Positions 8,793 through 39,531 of a stretch of DNA of 51,959 nucleotides are shown here, in pieces. Numbering within the stretch: the stretch's first letter is position 1; every line of letters begins with the position of its first letter. Source of the DNA: a virus; IMG/VR virus record IMGVR_UViG_3300044613_001140, positions 1 through 51,959 of that record, one strand, 5' to 3'. A program made the translations under genes and the position numbers. The notes under the pieces were generated by a model. That model saw only the letters and a list, made by a program, of their open reading frames with translations, ran no database searches and was not told where the DNA came from.

Positions 8793-9722
8793 ATGGCAAT
8801 TTCACGCGCACAACTACTTAAAGAACTCCTCCCGGGTTTGAACGCACTGTTTGGTTTGGAGTACGCTCGCTACGGCGAAGAGCACAAAGAACTGTACGAA
8901 ACAGAATCTTCTGAGCGTTCGTTCGAAGAAGAGACCAAGCTGTCCGGTTTCGGCGCTGCACCTGTTAAAAACGAGGGTTCGTCCATCGCTTTCGACAACG
9001 CGCAGGAAGCCTTTACTGCACGCTACACCCACGAGACCATTGCTCTGGGCTTCTCCATCACTGAAGAAGCAGTGGAAGACAACCTGTACGACAGTCTGTC
9101 TGCCCGCTACACCAAGGCTCTGGCTCGCGGTATGGCTTACACCAAGCAGGTTAAGGCCGCTGCGGTTCTGAACACAGGTTTCTCTGGCACCGCTCTTGGC
9201 GGTGACGGCGTGTCTCTGTTCGGTTACAACGCCTCTGCCGTTTTGGTCGGCCATCCGCTGGTTGGTGGTGGCGTAAACAACAACACCCCATCCACACCCT
9301 CTGATTTGAATGAGACTTCTTTGGAAGCCGCAACCATTCAGATCGCTGCTTGGGTGGACGAGCGTGGTCTGTTGATCGCTTCCAAGCCTGTCAAACTGGT
9401 GATCCCACCATCTTTGATGTTCGTGGCAAAGCGTTTGCTGGACACCGAACTGCGAGTTGCTACCGCTGACAACGACATCAATGCGTTGAAGTCAATGGGC
9501 ACCATCTCTGCTGGTTACACCGTCAACCACTATCTGACCGATCCGAATGCTTGGTTCCTGACCACAGACGTTCCTAACGGTTTGAAGCACTTCGAGCGTG
9601 CTGCGATGACAACATCGATGGATGGTGACTTCGACACCGGCAACGTGCGTTACAAAGCCCGCGAGCGTTACAGCTTCGGCTTCTCTGACCCACTGGGTAT
9701 CTTCGGATCACCCGGCGCGTAA
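8793..9722 (+). CDS. Major capsid protein, Mu gpT-like, 309 aa
   Basis: The main head subunit. The pattern fits the Mu gpT major head family: a helical N terminus with ELYETESSERSFEEET (about residues 34-49), TARYTHETIALGFSITEEAVEDN (split near residue 80), a central beta/alpha region with ASKPVKLVIPP, and a C terminus ending ERYSFGFSDPLGIFG. Length is typical. It is preceded by TAAGGAG and followed immediately by the strongest terminator in the window, as expected for the most abundant virion protein. Confidence 0.9.
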   Translation: MAISRAQLLKELLPGLNALFGLEYARYGEEHKELYETESSERSFEEETKLSGFGAAPVKNEGSSIAFDNAQEAFTARYTHETIALGFSITEEAVEDNLYDSLSARYTKALARGMAYTKQVKAAAVLNTGFSGTALGGDGVSLFGYNASAVLVGHPLVGGGVNNNTPSTPSDLNETSLEAATIQIAAWVDERGLLIASKPVKLVIPPSLMFVAKRLLDTELRVATADNDINALKSMGTISAGYTVNHYLTDPNAWFLTTDVPNGLKHFERAAMTTSMDGDFDTGNVRYKARERYSFGFSDPLGIFGSPGA

Positions 9723-10601: not shown

Positions 10602-11117
10602 ATGACAATGCAATATGATGTAAAACAAGGCCATTTAAACCAAAGCGGTTTCTTTGTAAAGTATCGTACTCGCGTTAAAGGCGTTTCGTTTTTTGGCGGC
10701 AGTGGAACTTTGGTTTTGTTTGATACAACCGCAGCTCCAGTCACTTCTAGCGTAACTTATGGTCGCAGCGGCACAACCGTGACGATTGGAAAAACTGCGC
10801 ATGGGCTAACAACCGGCACTGTTGTTGGCATTCACTTTGACAGTGGCTCAGGTGGCGCTGCCACTGATGGAAATTACCGCATTACCGTAACAACCGCAGA
10901 TGCGTTTACGATCACAGACATCAATACTGGGAATATTACAGGTTCTCCGGCAGCGCTTTATGTCAGTGGCGCAAATCGTTGGCTGTTAACTTACGAAACT
11001 CACTCATCAGACGAGTTTCAAAATGCCCCTGTTATTCCCGGCGAAGGCGTACTGGCAGTTAATGGGATTTACGCCTATATGGACGCCATTGACGGAGCGC
11101 AGATTTATTATGGCTAA
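10602..11117 (+). CDS. Hypothetical virion protein, 171 aa
   Basis: Predicted beta-rich, with a central segment (about residues 50-110: VTYGRSGTTVTIGKTAHGL, then ITVTTADAFTITDI) matching a module I know from phage adhesion and nozzle proteins. A similar TVTVNDTSHGAATGDFV segment occurs in the nozzle-like protein at 24616-26529. It is probably a minor structural or decoration protein. GAGG precedes the start; the end overlaps the next gene by 8 bp. Confidence 0.65.
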   Translation: MTMQYDVKQGHLNQSGFFVKYRTRVKGVSFFGGSGTLVLFDTTAAPVTSSVTYGRSGTTVTIGKTAHGLTTGTVVGIHFDSGSGGAATDGNYRITVTTADAFTITDINTGNITGSPAALYVSGANRWLLTYETHSSDEFQNAPVIPGEGVLAVNGIYAYMDAIDGAQIYYG

Positions 11118-11367
11118 AAAGAAAGGCCCAGTTCTCTCGGTTGGTCGCGGCGAAAAGCTGCCGGTCTCCAAGGGAGCGGGCTTGACTGCCAAAGGCCGTG
11201 CCAAATACAACGCAGCTACGGGTAGCAACCTGAAAGCTCCCCAGCCCCAAGGCGGCAAGCGCAAGGATTCGTTCTGCGCCCGTATGTCCGGGATGCCGGG
11301 TCCAATGAAAGACGAAAAGGGTAAGCCCACCCGCAAGGCGGCTGCTCTGAAAAGATGGAAGTGCTGA
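11110..11367 (+). CDS. DUF6321-like basic protein, 85 aa
   Basis: A small, strongly basic protein. The core KLPVSKGAGLTAKGRAKYN and the end SFCARMSGMPGPMKD then RKAAALKRWKC match what I recall of DUF6321, found in many phages and some giant viruses. Function is unknown; Lys/Arg richness suggests nucleic-acid binding. It overlaps the upstream gene by 8 bp and is the first of a run of Lys-rich small proteins (to 13378). Confidence 0.8.
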   Translation: MAKKKGPVLSVGRGEKLPVSKGAGLTAKGRAKYNAATGSNLKAPQPQGGKRKDSFCARMSGMPGPMKDEKGKPTRKAAALKRWKC

Positions 11368-11368
11368 C

Positions 11369-11617
11369 ATGACTGAAGACGCTATCCAAACAGCCCGTGA
11401 ACTTGCTACGCATGCGTCCGACATCAAGCACTTGCAAGATGACATGGACAAGATGCTGGAGAACATGAAGGCCATGCAGGCAACGCTGACAGCCATTGAC
11501 AAAACGCTGTCTGAGGCTCGCGGTGGCTGGAAAGTTTTGATGTTGGTTGGCGGAGCAAGTAGTGTCGTAGGCGCTGGTTTAGTTCAGCTTGTTAACTGGT
11601 ACGCAGGCGGCAAGTAA
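11369..11617 (+). CDS. Small single-pass membrane protein, holin/XhlA-like, 82 aa
   Basis: An N-terminal amphipathic or coiled helix (about residues 5-50) is followed by one hydrophobic segment (WKVLMLVGGASSVVGAGLV, about residues 54-72) and a short tail. This plan matches XhlA-like phage holin accessories and also many small structural membrane proteins. It lies in the head region, away from the endolysin, so a second lysis protein is possible but unproven. The stop overlaps the next start as TAATG. Confidence 0.65.
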   Translation: MTEDAIQTARELATHASDIKHLQDDMDKMLENMKAMQATLTAIDKTLSEARGGWKVLMLVGGASSVVGAGLVQLVNWYAGGK

Positions 11618-12285
11618 TGTATCTGACAAGCAACATCCCGTACTTCAAATGCTGGGTGCGCAAAGAGTTTACGAATGCTCACCAGAAGTACCAAGGTGAG
11701 TTTATTCACGGGTTGGCAGTGGCGGTCACTACCATTCCTGACAGAAGTTTGAGTTTTCAGATAATCTTCACTGGCCTTGAGGCCGAAGAGGGTGAGAACG
11801 TACATGGTGGGGCAATGTGGGCGAGGATGCCGCTTGCTGCGCTTGTTGGAGATATTCCGCTGGAAGTGTGGCCTGAACGTATGTTGAACCACTTGTCGCA
11901 GCCTTGGGACTGCAACTCATACAATCACTCCATCATCAGCTTGGAGCGTGCAAAGCCTTCTCCGTGGATGTGCAAGATAGGCGGGGAGTTTTACACCGGC
12001 AGGTATTTGTTCACTGTAGATTACGCAGAGAGCGATGTTTCTGAAGACCCGTCACAGCACAAGCAGAGTCATGTGCTGATATTGACGGACGCAGGTAAGT
12101 GGACTGGAAATGTTGTGGCGCTGCCCAACAACCGGGTCCGGGTAACAAGTCCAGCCTATTGGCAAACTGGACAGGGAGCGCCTGATTTCAGGCCAAACCA
12201 GTGGATTCACTGTGCGGAGCAAGATGACTCGTACATGGATGCGGAGCAGACGTTTAACAACCTTTATCAGGAGCAAGAGAAATGA
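11617..12285 (+). CDS. Hypothetical protein, 222 aa
   Basis: Not recognised. A soluble mixed alpha/beta protein with many aromatic residues (FKCWVRKEF near the start; MARMPLAAL-like and SQPWDCNSYNHS in the middle; WQTGQGAPDF near the end) and six Cys. The start is the ATG in the TAATG junction. It sits between the small membrane protein and the Lys-rich peptides and may be a virion or assembly factor. Confidence 0.65.
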   Translation: MYLTSNIPYFKCWVRKEFTNAHQKYQGEFIHGLAVAVTTIPDRSLSFQIIFTGLEAEEGENVHGGAMWARMPLAALVGDIPLEVWPERMLNHLSQPWDCNSYNHSIISLERAKPSPWMCKIGGEFYTGRYLFTVDYAESDVSEDPSQHKQSHVLILTDAGKWTGNVVALPNNRVRVTSPAYWQTGQGAPDFRPNQWIHCAEQDDSYMDAEQTFNNLYQEQEK

Positions 12286-12347
12286 TGAAATCAAAAATGA
12301 TGGCCAGTGGCGGCATGATGAAATCCAAAATGATGGCCAGTGGCGGC
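12282..12347 (+). repeat. 33-bp tandem duplication in coding sequence
   Basis: Two in-frame copies of a 33-bp unit encoding MMKSKMMASGG, with a single difference (TCA against TCC). The near identity suggests a recent duplication. Confidence 0.9.
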
Positions 12348-12572
12348 GCTATGCCCATGAAAGACGGCAAGCCTGCTTTTGTTGGCGACGGCGTAGGCAA
12401 GATGAAAAAAGGCGGCATGCCACCAGCATTGGCCAAACACGCAGCAAAACCCGCTTCCAAGGCCCACAAAGGTCTGGCTGGTGGCGGCATGACCAAAATG
12501 GGCGCAGTAAAAACGTCTTCTGGTCGTGATGGTATTGCTGTTAAAGGCAAGACCAAAGGCCGGATAGTTTAA
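12282..12572 (+). CDS. Lys/Met/Gly-rich protein with duplicated N terminus, 96 aa
   Basis: It begins with two tandem copies of MMKSKMMASGG, encoded by 33-bp repeats (12282-12314, 12315-12347) that differ at one base. The rest is Lys-, Gly- and Ala-rich, ending in SSGRDGIAVKGKTKGRIV, a C-terminal motif shared with the proteins at 14311-15024 and 15424-15627. It is highly basic, so DNA or RNA binding or packaging inside the head is plausible. Function unknown. Confidence 0.7.
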   Translation: MMKSKMMASGGMMKSKMMASGGAMPMKDGKPAFVGDGVGKMKKGGMPPALAKHAAKPASKAHKGLAGGGMTKMGAVKTSSGRDGIAVKGKTKGRIV

Positions 12573-12574
12573 AC

Positions 12575-12865
12575 ATGATGGCCAGCCGTGGCATGGGGGA
12601 CATCAACCCCAGCAAAATGCCCAAGGGCAAGAAGATCACCCGCAAGGATGATCCGAACAAGGTTGACTTGTTTGCTAAAGGTGGCAAGGTGAAGTCCAAG
12701 GTCAATGAGGCTGGCAACTACACCAAGCCTGAGCTACGTAAACGCATCTTTAACGCCGTGAAGGCAGAGGCCACAGCGGGCACTGGCGCAGGACAATGGA
12801 GCGCCCGTAAGGCGCAAATGGTGGCGCAGCGTTACAAAAAAGCTGGCGGCGGGTACCGTGACTAA
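12575..12865 (+). CDS. Basic conserved phage protein, 96 aa
   Basis: Lys-rich. The C-terminal half (YTKPELRKRIFNAVKAEA, then GQWSARKAQMVAQRYKKAG) matches a small domain I recall from phages and large eukaryotic viruses, possibly DUF5872; the name is unverified. The domain is helical and probably binds nucleic acid. It overlaps the next gene by 8 bp. Confidence 0.75.
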   Translation: MMASRGMGDINPSKMPKGKKITRKDDPNKVDLFAKGGKVKSKVNEAGNYTKPELRKRIFNAVKAEATAGTGAGQWSARKAQMVAQRYKKAGGGYRD

Positions 12866-13199
12866 ATGGTCAGACAAGCGCAAAAAGGCAATTAACTGTG
12901 ATGCCCCCAAAGGGTTCTCGGAGAAAGCCCACTGCGCTGGAAAGAAGAAGATGGCAACAGGCGGCTTGGCTAAACCGCAACAGTCTCTAAAGGACTGGGG
13001 CAAACAAGACTGGAGAACCAAAAGTGGTAAAAAATCTTCTGAAACAGGTGAGCGATACCTTCCAAGCGCTGCGATTAAAAGTCTCAGCCCTGCTGAGTAC
13101 GCTGCGACGACCAAAGCCAAGCGGGCAGGAAAAGCCGCCGGGAAACAGTTCGTAGCGCAGCCCAAGCGTATTGCAAAGAAAACAGCGGGGTTTAGATAA
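12858..13199 (+). CDS. Basic conserved phage protein, 113 aa
   Basis: Starts at GTG 12858 (MTKWSDKRKK), overlapping the previous gene. It is Lys-rich throughout. A central segment, KDWGKQDWRTKSGKKSS then GERYLPSAAIKSLSPAEYAA, matches a small domain I recall from phages and large eukaryotic viruses. It ends FVAQPKRIAKKTAGFR. Two Cys (CDAPKGFSEKAHC) lie near the N terminus. Probable nucleic-acid binding; function unknown. The stop overlaps the next start as TAATG. Confidence 0.75.
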   Translation: MTKWSDKRKKAINCDAPKGFSEKAHCAGKKKMATGGLAKPQQSLKDWGKQDWRTKSGKKSSETGERYLPSAAIKSLSPAEYAATTKAKRAGKAAGKQFVAQPKRIAKKTAGFR

Positions 13200-13378
13200 T
13201 GGCTGGTAAGAAATTTATCCAAGAAGCAATCAAAAAACCCGGTGCATTACGCGCCGCGCTTGGTGCTAAAGAAGGCAAGCCGATTCCAGCCAAAAAGCTG
13301 GCGGCTGCGGCCAAAGCCCCCGGTAAACTAGGCCAACGTGCCCGGTTTGCTAAAACGCTCAGAGGCTTTAAGAAGTAA
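13199..13378 (+). CDS. Small basic protein, 59 aa
   Basis: It begins in the TAATG junction and ends 3 bp before the adaptor gene. About a quarter of residues are Lys or Arg; the segment KKLAAAAKAPGKLGQRARF and the ending RGFKK are of a type I have seen repeatedly in environmental phages. It is the last of the Lys-rich run and may be a DNA-binding virion peptide. Confidence 0.72.
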   Translation: MAGKKFIQEAIKKPGALRAALGAKEGKPIPAKKLAAAAKAPGKLGQRARFAKTLRGFKK

Positions 13379-13381
13379 CCT

Positions 13382-14314
13382 ATGGCAACCACCTCTGGCA
13401 CAGCAGCCTTTAACCTTGACCTGACTGATCTGGTCGAGGAGGCGTTTGAGCGCGTCGGTAGCGAGATGCGTACTGGCTACGACTTGCGGACTGCCCGCCG
13501 GTCGCTGAACCTGCTGTTTGCGGACTGGGCTAACCGTGGCGTGAACATGTGGACGTTTGAGCAAGGCTCCATCACTTTGGTGCAGGGGCAAAACACTTAC
13601 GCCCTGCCGTCAGACACCGTTGACCTGCTTGAGCACGTCATCCGCACTGGTGCTAACACGGCGTCTACACAGGCAGACCTGACGATCACCCGGATCAGCG
13701 TATCAACCTACGCCACGATTCCGAACAAGATTCAACAGGCGCGGCCAATCCAAATCTGGATTCAGCGGTACAACGCACAAAGCTCGCCTACGGGCCTGAC
13801 GCTGAACGGCACCATTACCTCTACGGCTACAACACTCACCCTCAGTTCTACTGTGGGCCTGCCAGCTTCCGGTTTTATCAAAATTGACAACGAGACCATC
13901 AACTACAGCTACATATCAGGGAATACCCTAAACAACTGTTTCCGCGCTCAGAACAACACCACCGCAGCCTCTCACACTACGGGCACAGCCGTGTTCTTGG
14001 AACAGCTCCCGGCGGTCACTGTCTGGCCAACGCCGGATGGCTCACAGACCTACACGCTGGTTTACTGGCGTTTGCGCCGTACGCAGGATGCCGGTGGTGG
14101 TGTCAACGTCATGGATGTGCCTTTCAGGTTCGTGCCTTGCATGGTGGCTGGGCTGGCCTACTACTTGGCTATAAAGGTGCCCGGTGGCATTGAACGTCTG
14201 GGCGTGCTCAAACAGCAGTACGATGAGGCGTGGCAACTGGCTTCGGATGAGGACCGTGAAAAGGCGGCTGTACGGTTCGTGCCGCGCCAGATGTTTATTG
14301 GAAGCGGAACATGA
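13382..14314 (+). CDS. Head-tail adaptor-like protein, 310 aa
   Basis: Probably a ring adaptor under the portal (P22 gp4 or gp11-type connector). The N-terminal helical part, LTDLVEEAFERVG then RTARRSLNLLFADWANRG, followed by YALPSDTVDLLEHV (about residue 75), and a C-terminal helix with VAGLAYYLAIKVPG then a coiled end, are typical. A beta-rich insertion (about residues 140-208, NGTITSTATTLTLSSTVGL and following) looks like a small added domain. Context between head and tail genes supports this. Confidence 0.75.
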   Translation: MATTSGTAAFNLDLTDLVEEAFERVGSEMRTGYDLRTARRSLNLLFADWANRGVNMWTFEQGSITLVQGQNTYALPSDTVDLLEHVIRTGANTASTQADLTITRISVSTYATIPNKIQQARPIQIWIQRYNAQSSPTGLTLNGTITSTATTLTLSSTVGLPASGFIKIDNETINYSYISGNTLNNCFRAQNNTTAASHTTGTAVFLEQLPAVTVWPTPDGSQTYTLVYWRLRRTQDAGGGVNVMDVPFRFVPCMVAGLAYYLAIKVPGGIERLGVLKQQYDEAWQLASDEDREKAAVRFVPRQMFIGSGT

Positions 14315-15024
14315 AGTCAAAGAAAGTGCGTAAGTTTTCCGGTGCGGAGGGTAGTTTTATACTGCCCGCACAGGTGCGCACTTTTGCCGAGACGGTTGCA
14401 GGTAACCGCGACCCCATCACAGAAAAAAATTTTAGTAAAAAAGAAACACAACAGATGCGCGACGCTATTGCGCGTTCGAGGGAACGGCAATCGAAGATTG
14501 TAGAATTTGAAAAAAGCAAAGGTCGTAGAGGATACTACGACGAAACCGTAGACTATAAGGATTACGGCGCGGACAAGTTAAGACAGATGGACTCTAAGAG
14601 AGACTACAGCCCCCTACCGGGTGATGCCGCAAGAAACACATTGGGGCGTTTTAAGTACGAGAAGACGCCGGAAGGTCGTTTGGTTGTAACCGACAGTTAC
14701 GATTTCAAAGACGATCTCGTGGATAAAAACTCAAATATCCCGCGTTCGAAAGACTACGAAAAGTTGAGCACGTTTGAAAAACTGGGCAAACTGGCAAAAG
14801 ACACTATTGCTTCGGACAAAGGAGGTTTAACAACGCTCCCCAGCCGTGTGGGTAGTGCGTTTGTCGGAGCCGCATCCCGACCCGTGCGTGTTGACCTCGG
14901 AGAAGCCCCCTTTAGAAAAGGCGGAGCAGTAAAAGCACGAGCGCACGGCCCATCACGCACAAGTTCTTCTAAGCGCGGCGACGGCATTGCCAAAAAAGGC
15001 TTTACCAAAGGCAAGGTGCGATAA
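14311..15024 (+). CDS. Hypothetical protein with shared basic C-terminal motif, 237 aa
   Basis: No enzyme family assigned. The N-terminal half is charged and helical (QQMRDAIARSRERQSKIVEF). The middle (ARNTLGRFKYEKTPEGRLVV then TDSYDF, about residues 109-132) resembles a module I have seen in phage structural proteins. The C terminus is basic and ends SSSKRGDGIAKKGFTKGKVR, the motif shared with two other proteins here. ATGA overlap with the adaptor gene and TAATG with the next show tight coupling. Confidence 0.7.
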   Translation: MKSKKVRKFSGAEGSFILPAQVRTFAETVAGNRDPITEKNFSKKETQQMRDAIARSRERQSKIVEFEKSKGRRGYYDETVDYKDYGADKLRQMDSKRDYSPLPGDAARNTLGRFKYEKTPEGRLVVTDSYDFKDDLVDKNSNIPRSKDYEKLSTFEKLGKLAKDTIASDKGGLTTLPSRVGSAFVGAASRPVRVDLGEAPFRKGGAVKARAHGPSRTSSSKRGDGIAKKGFTKGKVR

Positions 15025-15413
15025 TGGGCAACCGTTTTTCCTCCGGCAAGAACTCGATTGCCATTTGCGACAGGTGTGGTTTTCAGTTTAAGCTGACCAA
15101 CCTGCGCAAAGAAGTTGTTAAGACAAAGATTAACAACACGCTGGTCTGCCCGTCCTGCTATGACCCGGATCAGCCACAGCTCCAGTTGGGCATGTACCCA
15201 GTAGATGACCCGCAAGCGGTGCGCAACCCCCGCAGGGACTCAACGTATGTTGAGGCTGGTGTAAACACGGCAGGGTTCAATACCGGGGGTAGCCGGGACA
15301 TCCAGTGGGGTTGGTATCCGGTTGGTGGTGCTAGCTTCTTCACCGAGTTGCTGACGCCAAACAATCTGGTGTTGACTACAGCGGTGGGTCAAGTGACAAT
15401 CTCAGTAACCTAA
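15024..15413 (+). CDS. Zinc-ribbon structural protein, 129 aa
   Basis: Two CxxC pairs, CDRC (C15, C18) and CPSC (C42, C45), form a clear zinc ribbon at the N terminus. The rest is Gly/Thr/aromatic-rich and beta-like, which suggests a virion part rather than a regulator. I recall similar proteins between adaptor genes in environmental phages. It is probably a small connector or tail-associated protein. Confidence 0.72.
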   Translation: MGNRFSSGKNSIAICDRCGFQFKLTNLRKEVVKTKINNTLVCPSCYDPDQPQLQLGMYPVDDPQAVRNPRRDSTYVEAGVNTAGFNTGGSRDIQWGWYPVGGASFFTELLTPNNLVLTTAVGQVTISVT

Positions 15414-15423
15414 GGAGTTAGAA

Positions 15424-15627
15424 ATGGCCATATCGTACAAAACCAGACCAGCCCCAACAAAGGCAGTGCTTCCGCCAACGAACAACGACAAGTATTTGGC
15501 GGATGTAAACGTGTCAGTGGGCAACAACCGCAGTAACGATTACAAGCCAACCAAGACCACAGGCATAGTGACCCGGGGTAATGGCTGCGCCACTAAAGGC
15601 ATCACCGCCCGAGGACCAATGGCGTGA
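15424..15627 (+). CDS. Small protein ending in RGNGCATKGITARGPMA, 67 aa
   Basis: The first 45 residues are extended and polar. The end RGNGCATKGITARGPMA is the third example here of a C-terminal GxGxAxKGxT motif (see 12282-12572 and 14311-15024). A ribosome site (AAGGAG) precedes it, and its stop overlaps the next start as GTGA. Function unknown. Confidence 0.75.
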   Translation: MAISYKTRPAPTKAVLPPTNNDKYLADVNVSVGNNRSNDYKPTKTTGIVTRGNGCATKGITARGPMA

Positions 15628-31674: not shown

Positions 31675-34600
31675 ATGGCCGACAAAATCCAACTCCCCAA
31701 TGGTGCTTTTTTTCCTGTTAAGGAGGGCGAGAGTAAGGAGCAGGCACTGGCCGTAGCCAAGCAAATGTACCCCGATGCGTTTCAAAAAACGCAATCTGCG
31801 GAGCCAAAACAAGACACATCTGGATTCAAAGCGGCAGCATCTGCCGGTGCTACCCGATTAGGCGGGGAGTTTGAACTACTCAAAGGCAAGCTCGGCGTAA
31901 AGAGCGAAGCCGAAGCGCAGAAAGAATACGAAGCCGCGCAAGCAAAAGCAGCCGCACGCTTTACCCCCACAGAGAAGGGCTTTACGGAAGCCCCGTTTTT
32001 GAAGTTTAAGGAACTTCTTGGCGGCTCTGTTCCGTACGTGGTTGCGCCTGCGGCTGCGGGTCTTGCTGCTTTGGCTGCTCCTGTTGCCGCTCCGGTTGCT
32101 GCGGGTCTTGGTTTGTTGGGCGCAAGCGCGGTGTCCGCAGGTCAGTTCACGGGCTCCAACCTTGCCGCGCAGGTAGACACAGGCAAGACGCTGGAAGAAG
32201 CCAGCCTTGGCAAAGCGGTCGGCGCAGCAATTCCGCAAGCGCTAATTGACACGGCGGCTATGGCCCTCTTACCCGGTGTGGGTAAATTGTTTAGTTCTGT
32301 TGGTTCCAAACTGACTGCCGAACAAGCCAAAGCAATTGCATCACAGACGCTGGCCCGCACCGCTGCGGACTACACCGCAAAAACAGGTCTGGCAATGGGG
32401 CGCGAGGGTATTACGGAAGTTGCCCAACAGGTGCTTGAGCGTTTGCAAGCAGGACTTGCGATTGCAGACCCCGAAGCACGCAAAGAGTACATTGACAGCT
32501 TTATTGGTGGCGCGGTATTAGGTGGGACTCTTGCCCCCGTTGGCCGTGCATTTGAGCGCAGTGGTGCCAAGAGCCAAGCGGCTGCCGAAGATCGCAAAAC
32601 AAGACTGGCCGCAAAAGCCGAGGAGCAACGTCTTGCCGCTGAAGCCGATGCCAAAGAAGAGGCGTTTAAAAAGTCCCCTGATTACGCGCTCAAAGTAGCA
32701 GATGACTACGCCGCTGCCGAGAAAGCTAAAGCGGATTTAATGGCTCAAAAGCGCAAGATTGTTAAGGGATCGCCCACTGAGACTGCGGACAAAGCGTTTA
32801 ACACGATTATTACCAAGCAGCTTCAAGCGCAAGCGCCGGAGCTTAAAGCCCTTGGTGACGAATATGTTCGCCTTGAACCTATTATCAAGCAGGCAATTGA
32901 ACAAAAACGAATTGAGACGCTGACCCCTGAAGAGTATTCGCTGGAGCAGATGCAGGCTGATGTTGCCGGTGCTGCCCCCCGCCGCACTCGTGACGAGCGT
33001 TTGGCGGCTTTGAATCAGCCAATTCCTGAAGAAGAAACGGCCCCCTCCCCCGACGCTGCGTACGTTGATGACCGTCTTGCATTGGCAAGAGCACAGGTTA
33101 CCTTTACGGGGGACATTGAAAAGGATGCTCCCGATTACGTTGACTACCTGATGACCGACCCGCGCATGGCCCAGACCATCGTAAACAATCAAACAGCGTT
33201 GCCGGGATTTAACCGTAAAGAACAAAACCTTATTCGGGACATATTAAAGGTAAAACTGGACGCATTTCCGCAACCCCAAGCAGGCACCGCTGCGTCTCAA
33301 GCTCGTGTTGGCATTGTTGAAGAAGAAGAGCAAGCTGCCATTGAAGCCCAACGCGCTGCGGACGAAGCCGAAGCTACCCGCATGGAGACGGAACGCGCTG
33401 ATGCACAACGCACTGCTCGGCTTGCCCCCGAGGTAGAAGGTATCAAGCGGTTAGGCAAAGTGCCCGAAGGTGCTTTTAGTTCCGCCAACGCAGACGCTAT
33501 TTTCCGCGACATGTATCTAAAACAAGCGGACGAGGAGCGCGTAGATCAATTGCTGTCTACGTTGCCCATGAGCAGCATCACGACGCCCGGTAAAATTTAC
33601 GCAGGCTTGGGGTTTGAGACGGCCAGCCGCCGTGACTTACTCACCCGCATTGCAGTGGCCAAAGCCCACACAGGCACGGAAGACGTAGCGCAGTTGCGCG
33701 AAGCGTTGGCCAAACTTGATGCCGAAGCCGGTAGCAAAGCCAACATGAGCGAGCGCCTGCCCGGTGAAGGCTTGCTGCCCGAAGCAGAAAAGAAAACGAT
33801 TGCGGCTGAAAAACTTGCCGACCAGCAGAGTCGTACATTGCAAGAGTACATCCAGTTTTTGGAAGATAAAAAACGCGGCAAGCCGCGTGGCACGCTGCGT
33901 CTGGGCCGCAAAGAACGACTCGAAACCGCTGGCGACGAGTTTAAAGCTGCGTACGCCAAGCAGCATGTCGATGAGGTGAATGCGCGTTTGGATGCGTTTG
34001 GTTTGCCCCAACTTACAGAAACAGAAGCCAAGATTGCCACGGGGCGTGTTATGCGCAACCTCAACGAGCTTGGTGAGCGTTGGACGGTATCTAGCACAGC
34101 AGCGCCGGGATTGGGGACGTTTGCTGCGCCCGTTAAGGCTATGGAAGTTTTGCAAGAGCAGATTCGCAGCGGAATGTTCAAGACAATCAACGACGCGGCA
34201 GAGCGTGCTAACTTGGTGCGGCGCGGGGAAAAAGCCGGAAAGACTCGCACTGCTGAAGGCGGCGCACGCATTGCCACTCCTGACGAACTCAAGCTCCGCG
34301 CCGAGTCCACCGTTCCAAAAAATGACAAGCGCATTGCTACCGAGTTGGCGACGCAGTTGCGGGATACGCTCGACCAGCGCACATACGCTAGGCCAGAACA
34401 ACCAGCCCCTAAAGGCAAAGAGGGTTCTAATCGCGCAGACATGGCACTTGCCTTTGGCGCTCAAGAGCGCGGGATGCGTGCGGATATTGCCAGTCGCGCA
34501 GAGTCCCTTGACGAAGACACCAAGGACTTTGTTCGCCTTGCAGCCGACACGTTGGACCAGATCAAGGATGAATCGCTTATCACGCGCCTTAAAGAAGGTT

Positions 34601-37600
34601 TGCAAGACGTGGCTGAAGGCCGCAAAGTCAGCGCACTGACGCAGCAAGAACTCAAAGACTTTGTAGCCACTCGTGCCAAGGATGTGCAGAGCACCACGCG
34701 CCCCGGCGCTACCCCTGAAGAGTTGCAACGCACCAGCGCCCAGCCGCAAATGTCGCTGGCTGGTTTTGATGAAGTTGGAGAGCGTACTCAGCGTGCTACA
34801 CCTAAGAACTTTCAGAAGATGCTTGACTCTAAGGATGTGCAGGGCATGCGTGCAGCTATTGCAAAAATGCGCACCGACAACATAGTGGCAATACAAGAAG
34901 CCGCACGTAACACCCCCGCAGCGCTGCGTGCAGCACGTACCGCCAAAGCTCGTGTAGCGTATAACGCGGCACTTGCACAGGAACAGAAAAACTCTTCAGT
35001 TGTCAGTAAGCTAAAAGCCGTGTTCACAGAAGAGCGGGCGGGCGCAAGAGAAGTTGTTGACGCGCTGCAAAATCAACTTGTTGGTTTGCAAAAAAGAATT
35101 GACGAAGTTGCCGAAGTTCGTTCGATGTTAGGAAAAGAAACAAACGACATGGCGTTGATGATACAAGCGCCAAGTGTTTTGGGGCAGGAAAAAGCACTTC
35201 AAAAACGTTTGAAAGAAACGCAGACTGCTTTGGATTTTGCTAAAGATTTGGTTGTTGCCGTAGACAAACAAAACGCTGCCAGTGCGACGTTGTATGACAT
35301 GCTCACTAAAGAAGTCACAACTACTACAGAAGTCAGGCGTACTAGAGAAACAGGCGGTCGGTTCCAAGCGTTTGAAAAACAGCAGCGGCGGGGCGAGCAA
35401 GCGGTTGAGGATGCGCGTAAAGAGCTGGATGCTGCTGAAAGGGCCGAACGTGAAGCCGCCGTAGAAATTAAAAAAACTAAGTCGGTACAGTCGGAGTTTC
35501 GTGATACTGCGCAGCGTGCTCGTGAAGGTTTGGACTTGCCCGGACTGCGCAGCACGGTTGACACAACCAAGATGCGGACGCAAATTAGCAACATCCGCAG
35601 CGCTATGGGATCGCTCGATGCTCAGCTCAATGCGGAAACAGACCCCGTTAAGAAAGCAGCTATCCAAGCAAAGATAGACGCTACGGCGGCTAAGCTAGAA
35701 ACTGTTTACGCGGACGCCCCGCGTATCACGACGGCTATTGCTGAAAAAGACCAGCTCTTGTTTGAGCAGACGTTTGATGACGTTCATATTGCTGCGTACG
35801 ACAAGCAGATGGCCAAGGCACGTATCAAGGGCGGTGAATACGGCCCTGCGCTTTCCAACCGCAGGCAAGGCACGGTAGATCGTCCACAAACCGGGGGACG
35901 TATTGTACAAACGGGCGAGAAACGTGCAACTCCAGCCAGTGAGATGGCCGGTAGCGCTCTTGAACGCGTTGCGCAGGAGCGTGCCGCGCTGCGTGAACTG
36001 GAAGACCGCGTAGCTTTCTTGCGTGCAAACGGCAAAGACAAAGTTAAGGGTCGGCTGACCGACGCTTTTAAGGCGCTGCAAGAAAAAGTTACAAAGCAAA
36101 AAGTGGTTGTCAGGGAAACGGAAGAAGCACAGAAAGCAACCGTTGCAGCCGTGCGCGACATCAACAAAGAAGAACGTGCCGAAAAAGCGCGGGTTCGTAA
36201 GGCAGAGGTAAAAGCTGAAGATGACGGCGTGGTGTTCCGCACAACTACCCGGGGCGGGCCTACGTTGGCTACCGAAGAAGTGTCCGCAATTGCGGATCGC
36301 ATCACCGCTGACTGGAAAAACGCTCCTGAAATTGTTGTAGTGGCAACGGAGAACGAACTGCCACTGCGTATATTGGGGCTGCTTGTCAAACGCGAAGCCA
36401 CCAAAAACACCCCCGGTTTGTTTGATATTCCAAGTGGCAAGGTGTACTTGATCGCCAGCAATTTGCGTAGTGCCCAAGATGTGGTGCTTACAGTTGCACA
36501 CGAAGCAACGGGCCACTTTGGTTTGCGCGATTTACTTGGCGGCGACTACACGCGCACGATGGACAGCCTCTACGCAGGTAATCCGGATGTACGCAAACAA
36601 GCCGACGCGAAGCTGGCAAAGGAACCCGCGCTAACTCAGCAAGTTGCTGTGGAAGAAGTGTTGGCCGACATGGCCGAGACGGGCGGCGTTACGCCCGCCG
36701 AGAAAAGCGCATTGCGCCGTATTTACGAGGTTCTGCGTAACTGGTTCCGCACCACCTTCAAGCTGCCAAACGTCACCGATGCGGAAGTCCAGCAGCTCGT
36801 TGCCAATGCCCGCAAGCAGGTTATTGAGGGCGGCAAGAAAGCAGAAGGCGTTGCGCCGGAAGGCGGGATACTGCGCCGAACTAAGCAGACAGAACCGGCT
36901 AACGCGTTGGAATCGCTAGCGCGGGAAATCACAGCACAGCCCCTAACGCTCAAGGAAAAGCTGGGCAACAACCTTGCACTGCAAACCGAAATGCAAGCAG
37001 TGGACATGCGTGCAGGTCTGCGCGAAACGCTCCGCTTTGGAGACGACAGTCTGTTTACCCAAGCCATGTACCACGTACGCAAGGCTGAGCAGAAAATGGC
37101 GCAGATGTTCACCGTCATGAACAGCGGTCCGCTGGTGGCGTACAAAGATGCCAAAGGGTTTATAGGGTATCGAAGTTCCAATGAAAACAGCGCTCGTGAT
37201 GTGTTTGACGCGATTGCTGACATCCCTGTGGACGATCCGCAGCTAAAGACCAATATTGCACAGGCGTATCTAGTTGCTATCCGCGCAAACAACAAAGGCT
37301 TGTCCAAGCTGGATATGGGGGAACTGGGCGTTACACAAGAAGCCCTTGACGCGGCGCTGGCCGCAGCCGATGCCGACCCTGCTTTGAAAACCGCACTGGA
37401 GAACGTGCGCCGCAAGTACAACGCGTACAACAAGGGGCTTATTGAGTTCCTTGCTTCGACTGGCCGTATCTCTAAGAAGGCAGCAGCCGACTTGCTGAAA
37501 GACGGCGATTACGTTCCGTACTACCGTGTGCGCGACAACGGCATGGCTGAGCTGAACTTTGGCAACAACGTCACGTTCAACGTGGGCGACATCCGCCGCC

Positions 37601-39531
37601 AGCCATACCTTGCGGAGCTTAAAGGTGGCCAGACCAAGTTGCTGCCCCTGAACGAAGCCATTCAGCAAAACACATTGTTGCTGACGGACATGGCGCTGAC
37701 CAACAATGCTGCGAAGAGCGTTGCGTACGGCTTGCAAGCGCTGGGCAAAGGCATGGGTCCCGTCGATCCTATTACAGGTAAACCCGGCAATCTGATGCCG
37801 ATCAAGACTGGCCCCGGTCCTGCTGACGCACGCACCATCCGTTTCTTCCAAGAGCCTGACCCAAGCAACCCGAAGGACACCGGCGAGCGCCATCTGATTG
37901 TCAACACCAAAGGCACCGCAGCCGAAGGCATCCCCGCCGAGCTGGTCGTGCAGAGTTTGGAAGGCGCAAGCCTTGCGCTCCCCGGGTTTTTCAAGCTGGG
38001 CGGAGCTGCTGCCGATTTGCTGCGTGCTGGTGTGACCCGCACGCCCTTGTATATTGCCCGCAAGCTGATCCGTGAGCCTATGGCCGCAGCTTTTACAGGT
38101 GGCCTGAACAGCAACGTGTTTTCTGCGGTCTTCAAAGCAGGCGCTGAGTTTGTGCGCATGAGCCGTGGTACCAGTGACGCGCAAGCCAAGCTCATTGAGA
38201 AGGGTTTAATTCAGTCCAACATCTTTGCAGGCGACATGTCTGACATGAAGAAGATGGCTCTTCAGCTTGCCAGCGGCAAAGACCAGAGCGCATTTGACAA
38301 AGTGCTGGCCGCAGCCGACCGATACGCGATGCGTGCCGATGCTGCCACACTGGCGCTGGTGCTCAAAAACGCTGAAGAGAACGGGCTGTCAGAAGTTGAA
38401 GCTGACATGATGACGATGGAGTCCATGAACTTCTACAAGCGTGGGCTTTCGCCTACGCTGCAATACGCCAGCCGTTTGATCCCGTTCTTCAACGCGCAGA
38501 TTCAGGGTCTGAGCGTTCTGATTAAGGCTGCTCGCGGCAATATGCCGTTTGAGGAACAGCAGCAAATCAAGCGCAAGTTCTTTAACAATGCCATGCTGCT
38601 AATGGCTACGGGGCTTGTGTACGCAATGGCGATGGAAGATGACGAGACATTCCGCAACGCCCGCCCTCGGGACAAGTACTCCAACTTCTTCTTACCTATT
38701 CCGTTCGTGGATGAGCCCATTAAACTGCCCATCCCGTTTGAAGCCGGTTACTTCTTCTCGCTGGCGGTGGCTGCTGTCGATGGCATGCGTGCCGAGACTG
38801 ATGGCAAGGCGCAGTTCCAAGCGCTGCGCGACTTGTTCTTGGGGTCTATCCCCGGCTACTCGTCTATGGGAATGCCTGCACTTGTTAAGCCTGCTTTTGA
38901 AGTATGGGCCGACAAGAACTTTTTGACCGGTGGTTCCGTGGAGCCTCGCCGTTTGCAGAGTGTCAACACTGAGGAGCGCTACCTTGCGACCACCACAGAG
39001 CTGGCCAAGCAGATGAGCAAGGCGGTGCCAATCCTGTCACCCATTCAGATCGAGCACATTGTGCGCGGGTATCTGGGCGTGCTGCCCTTGGTGGCTGCGG
39101 CGGGAGCCAACAGTTTGTTTGAGGGTGAGAAAAAGGCGGAGAAACCCGAAAGCCGTGCGTCTGAATTACCGTTGATTGGCACCGCGTTCCAGAAAAAGTA
39201 CGGTGGTGGCGATGCCGACGTGGTGTACCGCGAAGCGCAAGAAGCCATTGAGGCTCGCAACACATTTAACAAGATGCTCAGAGAAGGCCGCAGAGAAGAC
39301 GCCGTTGCTTACCGCGATAAGAACAAGGCCGATCTAGCTATGGCTTCCGCTGCGGGGCAGTATCGGCAAGTGGTTGGTCGCATCAACGAGGACATCCGCC
39401 GTACGCAAGATCGCACTGACCTGACACCACAAGAAAAGCGCATCCGTTTGGATGCGCTGGATAAGGCAAAACAGGAACGCGCCGATGCGTTTATCCAAAT
39501 GTCACGCAGAATAGCGGAGCGGGTAGGTTAA
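31675..39531 (+). CDS. Giant internal virion protein with zincin motif, 2618 aa
   Basis: Probably ejected with the DNA. The N terminus (QLPNGAFFPVKEGESKEQAL) is a module seen at the front of such proteins. A hydrophobic stretch (about residues 117-165) could enter a membrane. Long coiled regions fill about 290-1530. HEATGH (1609-1614, in LTVAHEATGHFGLRDLLGG) is an HExxH zincin motif. The C-terminal 800 residues resemble large polyvalent-protein-associated regions (LPD38-like: IPGYSSMGMPALVKPAFEVW near 2395). No RNA polymerase or transglycosylase motif was seen. It ends within four bases of a convergent gene. Confidence 0.82.
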   Translation: MADKIQLPNGAFFPVKEGESKEQALAVAKQMYPDAFQKTQSAEPKQDTSGFKAAASAGATRLGGEFELLKGKLGVKSEAEAQKEYEAAQAKAAARFTPTEKGFTEAPFLKFKELLGGSVPYVVAPAAAGLAALAAPVAAPVAAGLGLLGASAVSAGQFTGSNLAAQVDTGKTLEEASLGKAVGAAIPQALIDTAAMALLPGVGKLFSSVGSKLTAEQAKAIASQTLARTAADYTAKTGLAMGREGITEVAQQVLERLQAGLAIADPEARKEYIDSFIGGAVLGGTLAPVGRAFERSGAKSQAAAEDRKTRLAAKAEEQRLAAEADAKEEAFKKSPDYALKVADDYAAAEKAKADLMAQKRKIVKGSPTETADKAFNTIITKQLQAQAPELKALGDEYVRLEPIIKQAIEQKRIETLTPEEYSLEQMQADVAGAAPRRTRDERLAALNQPIPEEETAPSPDAAYVDDRLALARAQVTFTGDIEKDAPDYVDYLMTDPRMAQTIVNNQTALPGFNRKEQNLIRDILKVKLDAFPQPQAGTAASQARVGIVEEEEQAAIEAQRAADEAEATRMETERADAQRTARLAPEVEGIKRLGKVPEGAFSSANADAIFRDMYLKQADEERVDQLLSTLPMSSITTPGKIYAGLGFETASRRDLLTRIAVAKAHTGTEDVAQLREALAKLDAEAGSKANMSERLPGEGLLPEAEKKTIAAEKLADQQSRTLQEYIQFLEDKKRGKPRGTLRLGRKERLETAGDEFKAAYAKQHVDEVNARLDAFGLPQLTETEAKIATGRVMRNLNELGERWTVSSTAAPGLGTFAAPVKAMEVLQEQIRSGMFKTINDAAERANLVRRGEKAGKTRTAEGGARIATPDELKLRAESTVPKNDKRIATELATQLRDTLDQRTYARPEQPAPKGKEGSNRADMALAFGAQERGMRADIASRAESLDEDTKDFVRLAADTLDQIKDESLITRLKEGLQDVAEGRKVSALTQQELKDFVATRAKDVQSTTRPGATPEELQRTSAQPQMSLAGFDEVGERTQRATPKNFQKMLDSKDVQGMRAAIAKMRTDNIVAIQEAARNTPAALRAARTAKARVAYNAALAQEQKNSSVVSKLKAVFTEERAGAREVVDALQNQLVGLQKRIDEVAEVRSMLGKETNDMALMIQAPSVLGQEKALQKRLKETQTALDFAKDLVVAVDKQNAASATLYDMLTKEVTTTTEVRRTRETGGRFQAFEKQQRRGEQAVEDARKELDAAERAEREAAVEIKKTKSVQSEFRDTAQRAREGLDLPGLRSTVDTTKMRTQISNIRSAMGSLDAQLNAETDPVKKAAIQAKIDATAAKLETVYADAPRITTAIAEKDQLLFEQTFDDVHIAAYDKQMAKARIKGGEYGPALSNRRQGTVDRPQTGGRIVQTGEKRATPASEMAGSALERVAQERAALRELEDRVAFLRANGKDKVKGRLTDAFKALQEKVTKQKVVVRETEEAQKATVAAVRDINKEERAEKARVRKAEVKAEDDGVVFRTTTRGGPTLATEEVSAIADRITADWKNAPEIVVVATENELPLRILGLLVKREATKNTPGLFDIPSGKVYLIASNLRSAQDVVLTVAHEATGHFGLRDLLGGDYTRTMDSLYAGNPDVRKQADAKLAKEPALTQQVAVEEVLADMAETGGVTPAEKSALRRIYEVLRNWFRTTFKLPNVTDAEVQQLVANARKQVIEGGKKAEGVAPEGGILRRTKQTEPANALESLAREITAQPLTLKEKLGNNLALQTEMQAVDMRAGLRETLRFGDDSLFTQAMYHVRKAEQKMAQMFTVMNSGPLVAYKDAKGFIGYRSSNENSARDVFDAIADIPVDDPQLKTNIAQAYLVAIRANNKGLSKLDMGELGVTQEALDAALAAADADPALKTALENVRRKYNAYNKGLIEFLASTGRISKKAAADLLKDGDYVPYYRVRDNGMAELNFGNNVTFNVGDIRRQPYLAELKGGQTKLLPLNEAIQQNTLLLTDMALTNNAAKSVAYGLQALGKGMGPVDPITGKPGNLMPIKTGPGPADARTIRFFQEPDPSNPKDTGERHLIVNTKGTAAEGIPAELVVQSLEGASLALPGFFKLGGAAADLLRAGVTRTPLYIARKLIREPMAAAFTGGLNSNVFSAVFKAGAEFVRMSRGTSDAQAKLIEKGLIQSNIFAGDMSDMKKMALQLASGKDQSAFDKVLAAADRYAMRADAATLALVLKNAEENGLSEVEADMMTMESMNFYKRGLSPTLQYASRLIPFFNAQIQGLSVLIKAARGNMPFEEQQQIKRKFFNNAMLLMATGLVYAMAMEDDETFRNARPRDKYSNFFLPIPFVDEPIKLPIPFEAGYFFSLAVAAVDGMRAETDGKAQFQALRDLFLGSIPGYSSMGMPALVKPAFEVWADKNFLTGGSVEPRRLQSVNTEERYLATTTELAKQMSKAVPILSPIQIEHIVRGYLGVLPLVAAAGANSLFEGEKKAEKPESRASELPLIGTAFQKKYGGGDADVVYREAQEAIEARNTFNKMLREGRREDAVAYRDKNKADLAMASAAGQYRQVVGRINEDIRRTQDRTDLTPQEKRIRLDALDKAKQERADAFIQMSRRIAERVG

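Follow-up and report, generated by a model that had tools for sequence, protein, structure and literature searches.

Why should three proteins of one virus, different along most of their length, finish in closely related peptides? The question is raised by a 51,959-nt stretch of viral DNA (IMG/VR record IMGVR_UViG_3300044613_001140), referred to here as the window, in which the three genes and their tags lie on the + strand. P0001 (12282..12572) is a 96-aa basic protein of net charge +17 that belongs to an extended class 1 carrier family; its C-terminal tag (12522..12569) is GRDGIAVKGKTKGRIV, followed by the stop. P0002 (14311..15024), a carrier of 237 aa and net charge +21, ends in the class 1 tag RGDGIAKKGFTKGKVR (14974..15021) and the stop, with seven residues between the second G and the stop. 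P0003 (15424..15627) is a 67-aa protein of a class 3 family; its tag, RGNGCATKGITARGPMA (15574..15624, then stop), has eight residues after the second G where class 1 has seven, and its gene adjoins the second adaptor gene on the upstream side. A sequence-only reading of the window had pointed out these open reading frames and C termini, and all were found in the sequence. The remainder of each protein is dissimilar: the three bodies are mutually unrelated and the resemblance is confined to the tag. The same reading had described one motif common to all three; the ends are related, but P0001 has GRDG rather than RGDG and P0003 represents a separate sub-class. The motif falls within the last 20 residues in three of the 379 stop-to-stop segments (at least 60 codons) of the window, compared with a mean of 0.009 for shuffled residues, the motif pattern in this comparison having been picked after inspection of the data.

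Related peptides were found in other viral contigs. Class 1 was scanned for in IMG/VR using a DNA pattern for RGxGIAx[KR]GxT[KR]G, without a stop codon, and was present on at least 120 contigs; 126 of the 131 strict class 1 copies among the matches listed end exactly three residues past the matched core. The class 2 scan of IMG/VR, also without a stop, used the pattern RGxGAAxRGx[KR]FxG, modelled on pelagiphage HTVC023P. Among the matches listed, the core RGxGAAx[RK]G is followed by exactly seven residues in 126/134. The class 2 form is RGxGAAxRGxxFxGhh, and its position relative to the stop is fixed as in class 1: in both classes seven residues and the stop lie beyond the second G. Class 3, KTxGIKxRGxGAATKGxxARGPMA with the stop directly after it, has eight residues beyond the second G and marks a conserved small-protein family that includes P0003. 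Conservation of the residues that the DNA patterns specify is built into the search; independent information comes from how far the motif lies from the stop and from the positions left unspecified. The tag is real, and its distance to the stop is fixed for each class; the strong concentration of the motif at C termini bears out what the sequence-only reading had supposed for other phages. The motif strings were not found in the open-access papers searched. Judged from these patterns, RGxGxAx[KR]G with a fixed-length tail is a large, undescribed family of peptides of about 16 residues.

Longer and displaced versions also occur. In relatives of P0001 the motif is typically followed by TMIKMxKGGKxC; such extended class 1 tags run 13-31 residues beyond the second G, and Cys is usually the last residue (28/42). 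N-terminal copies are encoded at L121:19768-19995, L007:5276-5470 and L115:270-464 (MAGRGMGCATRGGG, MARGDGIAKKGxTKGK), another was found in phage DSL-LC04, and internal copies are represented by the extended tags and by L088. The few N-terminal (L007, L115, DSL-LC04) or internal copies indicate that a free C terminus is not strictly required. Proteins of L004 and L088 ending RGVGAARxxxATIY are possibly a further tag variant, and the C terminus of a 63-aa post-portal protein reads KKTATWY or VKATWY (L271:16967-17158, L272:12068-12259). A C-terminal position, a fixed length and hydrophobic residues near the end recall cleavage or degradation signals for a phage or host protease. We regard this explanation as very doubtful: conservation reaches the stop, on either side of any possible cut, and both the extended versions, with their conserved further tail, and the N-terminal copies speak against it.

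The variation among the tags shows what is conserved. For the class 1 unique tags listed (n=160), entropy averaged 0.50, 0.46, and 1.54 bits at codon positions 1, 2, and 3; for the class 2 tags listed (n=134) the averages were 0.64, 0.54, and 1.67 bits. With third codon positions free to vary, it is the peptide that is under selection. Because unrelated genes repeatedly end in the motif, one might suspect a DNA-level element or a recombination junction with the peptide as by-product. This is disfavoured and highly improbable, given that conservation is seen at codon positions 1 and 2, third positions being almost unconstrained, and that the DNA of class 1 tags from a single locus differs at about 30% of positions. 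Among the class 1 positions that the pattern left unspecified, D is found at -14 in 154/160 of the tags listed, K at -7 in 138/160 and K or R at -3 in 153/160, and position -2 is hydrophobic in nearly all 160. Within a genome, tag residues resemble one another weakly (class 1, p ~0.05; class 2, not significant). Free variation between close relatives would have spoken against the sequence-only reading; almost every family of homologous carriers shows a tag that equals or exceeds the body in conservation. Relatives of P0002 with 59-98% identity keep the class 1 tag, and the linker ahead of it differs in length.

The proteins that carry the tag are short and basic and come from many unrelated families. 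BLAST sorted the bodies of the carriers with listed tags into 155 groups, 111 being singletons; 155 is an upper bound, because some class 2 rows were entered twice as class 3. Median lengths of the carriers listed are 87-159 aa; 91-100% of their bodies are positively charged and 80-86% of the residues are disorder-promoting. MCP, portal, TerL, and scaffold-like proteins are acidic. Pfam and PHROGs gave almost no annotation across the 134 carrier rows scanned. An N-terminal module of two carriers matches families called virion structural protein. L061:4088-4576 and L140:5084-5377 have an N-terminal module whose relatives begin PSxSKKQHNFMAAVAxNPxFAKKxGxPQSVGKxF; it is also present in phiKZ PHIKZ165.1 and about 140 other phage records. 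Searches of phage records by tblastn gave no match for the tag with its upstream stretch (32 aa) or for P0002, and the class 2 locus stretch L196:5085-5282 had no match in the phage-record search. The class 3 family showed one weak cyanophage match, to S-H9-1 (E 0.2), the aligned part of which lacks the tag. AlphaFold models of P0002 (pLDDT 39.6) and P0003 (pLDDT 57.2) gave no confident structure. The P0002 family (14311-15024) contains a strongly conserved stretch, RNTLGRFxYxKxPxGxLxxxDxYDFKxDL, for which a convincing family match was not found.

Carrier genes are almost always part of the head-connector cluster, where capsid, portal, and adaptor genes are their neighbours. Seven window markers were used as profiles: TerL, portal, the scaffold-like protein, a 155-aa protein, the major capsid protein (MCP), and two SU10 adaptors. 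At least one marker was detected at 225 of the 237 tag loci listed, the remaining 12 being short (median 4.2 kb), and in the tag loci listed tag genes and markers were co-directional in 1098/1098 pairs. In the window, the MCP gene (8793..9722, +) is followed by SU10-type adaptor 1 (PF24175; 13382..14314, +) and SU10-type adaptor 2 (PF24175; 15624..16310, +). MCP was upstream of the class 1 tag gene in all 76 listed class 1 tag-MCP pairs (76/76), and adaptor 1 was downstream of it in 160/160 pairs from the loci listed. At those loci, adaptor 2 lies directly downstream of class 3 tag genes, with a median gap of 2 bp, and class 2 tag genes mostly flank the portal gene. Small, basic proteins, mostly without assigned function, might instead be sent by the tag to the ribosome, membrane or nucleoid late in infection. 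Such host targeting is quite unlikely for genes that are nearly always within the head-connector cluster and co-directional with it.

Several other features of this region were observed. Both SU10 adaptors are encoded in one genome, and between them lie two tagged genes and one for a 129-aa protein. The tract 11023-13378 encodes, among others, small proteins of strongly basic character (net +15 to +21). One is an untagged DUF6321 protein of net charge +20 (11023..11367, +); in several PHROG families, DUF6321 matches fall at the C-terminal end. Small basic-protein sets similar to this tract were found in HTVC023P and HTVC027P, and T7-like cyanophage P-SCSP2 has a comparable set between its scaffold and capsid genes. 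A protein matching a PHROG family labelled ferredoxin is encoded within the head gene cluster (11617-12285). Further along, at 31675-39531, a 2618-aa protein without a PHROG match is encoded downstream of a putative DNA ejection protein.

The gene order of TerL, portal, GroES, capsid, and adaptor in the window phage, two of whose proteins score over the curated PF24175 cut-off, matches that of SU10/Pam1/HTVC023P-like podoviruses, which have the head-connector gene order, SU10 adaptor domains, GroES, capsid, and portal as in the window. The sequence-only reading had mentioned similar ends in other environmental phages. They are present elsewhere, but the motif marks essentially one clade, these podoviruses. 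HTVC023P has two class 2 tags. The fixed-length pattern including the stop matched 17/21 phage records and no controls, which is not a frequency, as 16 of these records had been found through their tags; CRP-901, DSL-LC04, ct7L0027, and Pag-Yong1, phages of this clade, were the records without a fixed-length tag. The strict class 1 DNA pattern had no matches in the genomes of about 85,000 species of bacteria and archaea.

The tag is exchangeable as a module. Locus L140 encodes two adjacent unrelated proteins, one starting AVAHNPAFAKKVGIPQSVGKEF and the other with PIVTKEELEKSGMSLRDFLN, and both have class 2 tag ends; relatives of both in many genomes have class 1 or extended class 1 ends, and the other head genes of L140 resemble those of class 1 genomes. 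The same class 2 pair was found in four contigs of a related lineage (L273-L276), with carriers about 51% identical to those of L140, and L278 has the second L140-type body with a class 1 tag. The class 2 pairs of L140 and L273-L276 indicate that the tag is a separable module that tends to be common within a genome. A single tag class was observed in 119 of the 121 listed loci with at least two tags; of the two exceptions, L314 is a true mixture of classes 1 and 2, and L118 has a protein in the class 3 slot that matches the class 2 regex. The mixture in L314 implies that recognition need not be class-specific. Tag class agrees broadly with capsid phylogeny, with exceptions, and single-class genomes may result partly from shared descent.

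These observations bear on the possibility that the tag is an RG-box-like, nucleic-acid-binding tail, through which the carriers would compact the phage DNA or work at the packaging motor with no single protein partner. Tags that are basic and RG-rich, bodies that are basic in 91-100%, and genes clustered near portal, capsid, and adaptors all suit such a tail. We nevertheless consider it unlikely: the D at -14, the invariant I/A/T or A/A/F, the hydrophobic residues near the end and the fixed length exceed what charge needs, and free charge binding does not explain why neighbours jointly have the other class.

A common tag with one partner, as the sequence-only reading proposed, is the best-supported reading, in view of the fixed distance to the stop, selection on the peptide, the unrelated carriers and the class 2 neighbours. 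Cleavage, one of the signal types it had listed, is disfavoured; sorting, packaging, and nucleic-acid binding are inseparable by sequence. We tentatively suggest, as an explanation that falls only a little short of probable, that the tag is a terminal docking peptide by which small basic proteins are drawn to one shared component of the head or connector during assembly. That component would be a scaffold-like protein, the portal protein or the inner capsid surface; binding of the tag would bring the small basic carriers to the particle, where they would probably neutralise or organise DNA or seal the connector. The candidate partners (portal, the scaffold-like protein at 6685-7683, and MCP) are acidic, which suits a basic tag. 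In 15 gene trees no protein distinctly tracked tag class. As a lead from one case, L005 has a small-gene block and a cement-like protein that are class 1-like, and its capsid, scaffold-like protein, and portal are not. The tag is not a general packaging signal, being absent from the window's large putative internal proteins, that of 2618 aa among them. A more specific version, in which a capsid or connector protein recognises a modular cargo tag that loads many fast-evolving small proteins into the particle, is possible but rather doubtful. If the tag does serve loading, it would allow a class of accessory particle proteins to be picked out without regard to function in phages that are very abundant and have mostly unannotated small genes; it would also provide a natural peptide with which to put proteins into phage shells.

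Short shared peptides are known from other systems. In encapsulin systems, the cargo-loading peptide is short, usually C-terminal and present on different cargo proteins, and cargo genes lie near the HK97-fold shell gene, with several cargoes per shell possible (PMC8346489). The phage tag is likewise short and at or near the C terminus of different proteins. Unlike in encapsulins, the proposed shell would be a virus capsid or connector, to which binding is putative, and small basic proteins take the place of enzymes as carriers. We know of no sequence resemblance between encapsulin cargo peptides and the tag, and PDB profile searches with the three tag alignments, which could miss such short peptides, gave chance hits or none and no relevant match, including to known cargo peptides. 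RG/RGG boxes are Arg-Gly rich, basic elements of disordered regions that bind nucleic acid and tolerate variable repeat number and spacing; the tag is also RG-rich and basic, but strict in length and residues. The capsid targeting sequence of T4 is a short peptide common to different small internal proteins, which marks them for head packaging; it is N-terminal and is removed by the gp21 protease. The tag, in contrast, is almost always C-terminal (126/131 among the matches listed), N-terminal copies being rare, and has no evident processing site. Membership in either the encapsulin cargo peptides or the T4 targeting sequences is not supported. The best reading by analogy is that the tag is functionally most like an encapsulin cargo peptide or, at the opposite protein end, the T4 signal; if cargo loading is indeed its role, a clade of abundant environmental phages would have its own equivalent of the encapsulin system, using a tag code that can be exchanged.
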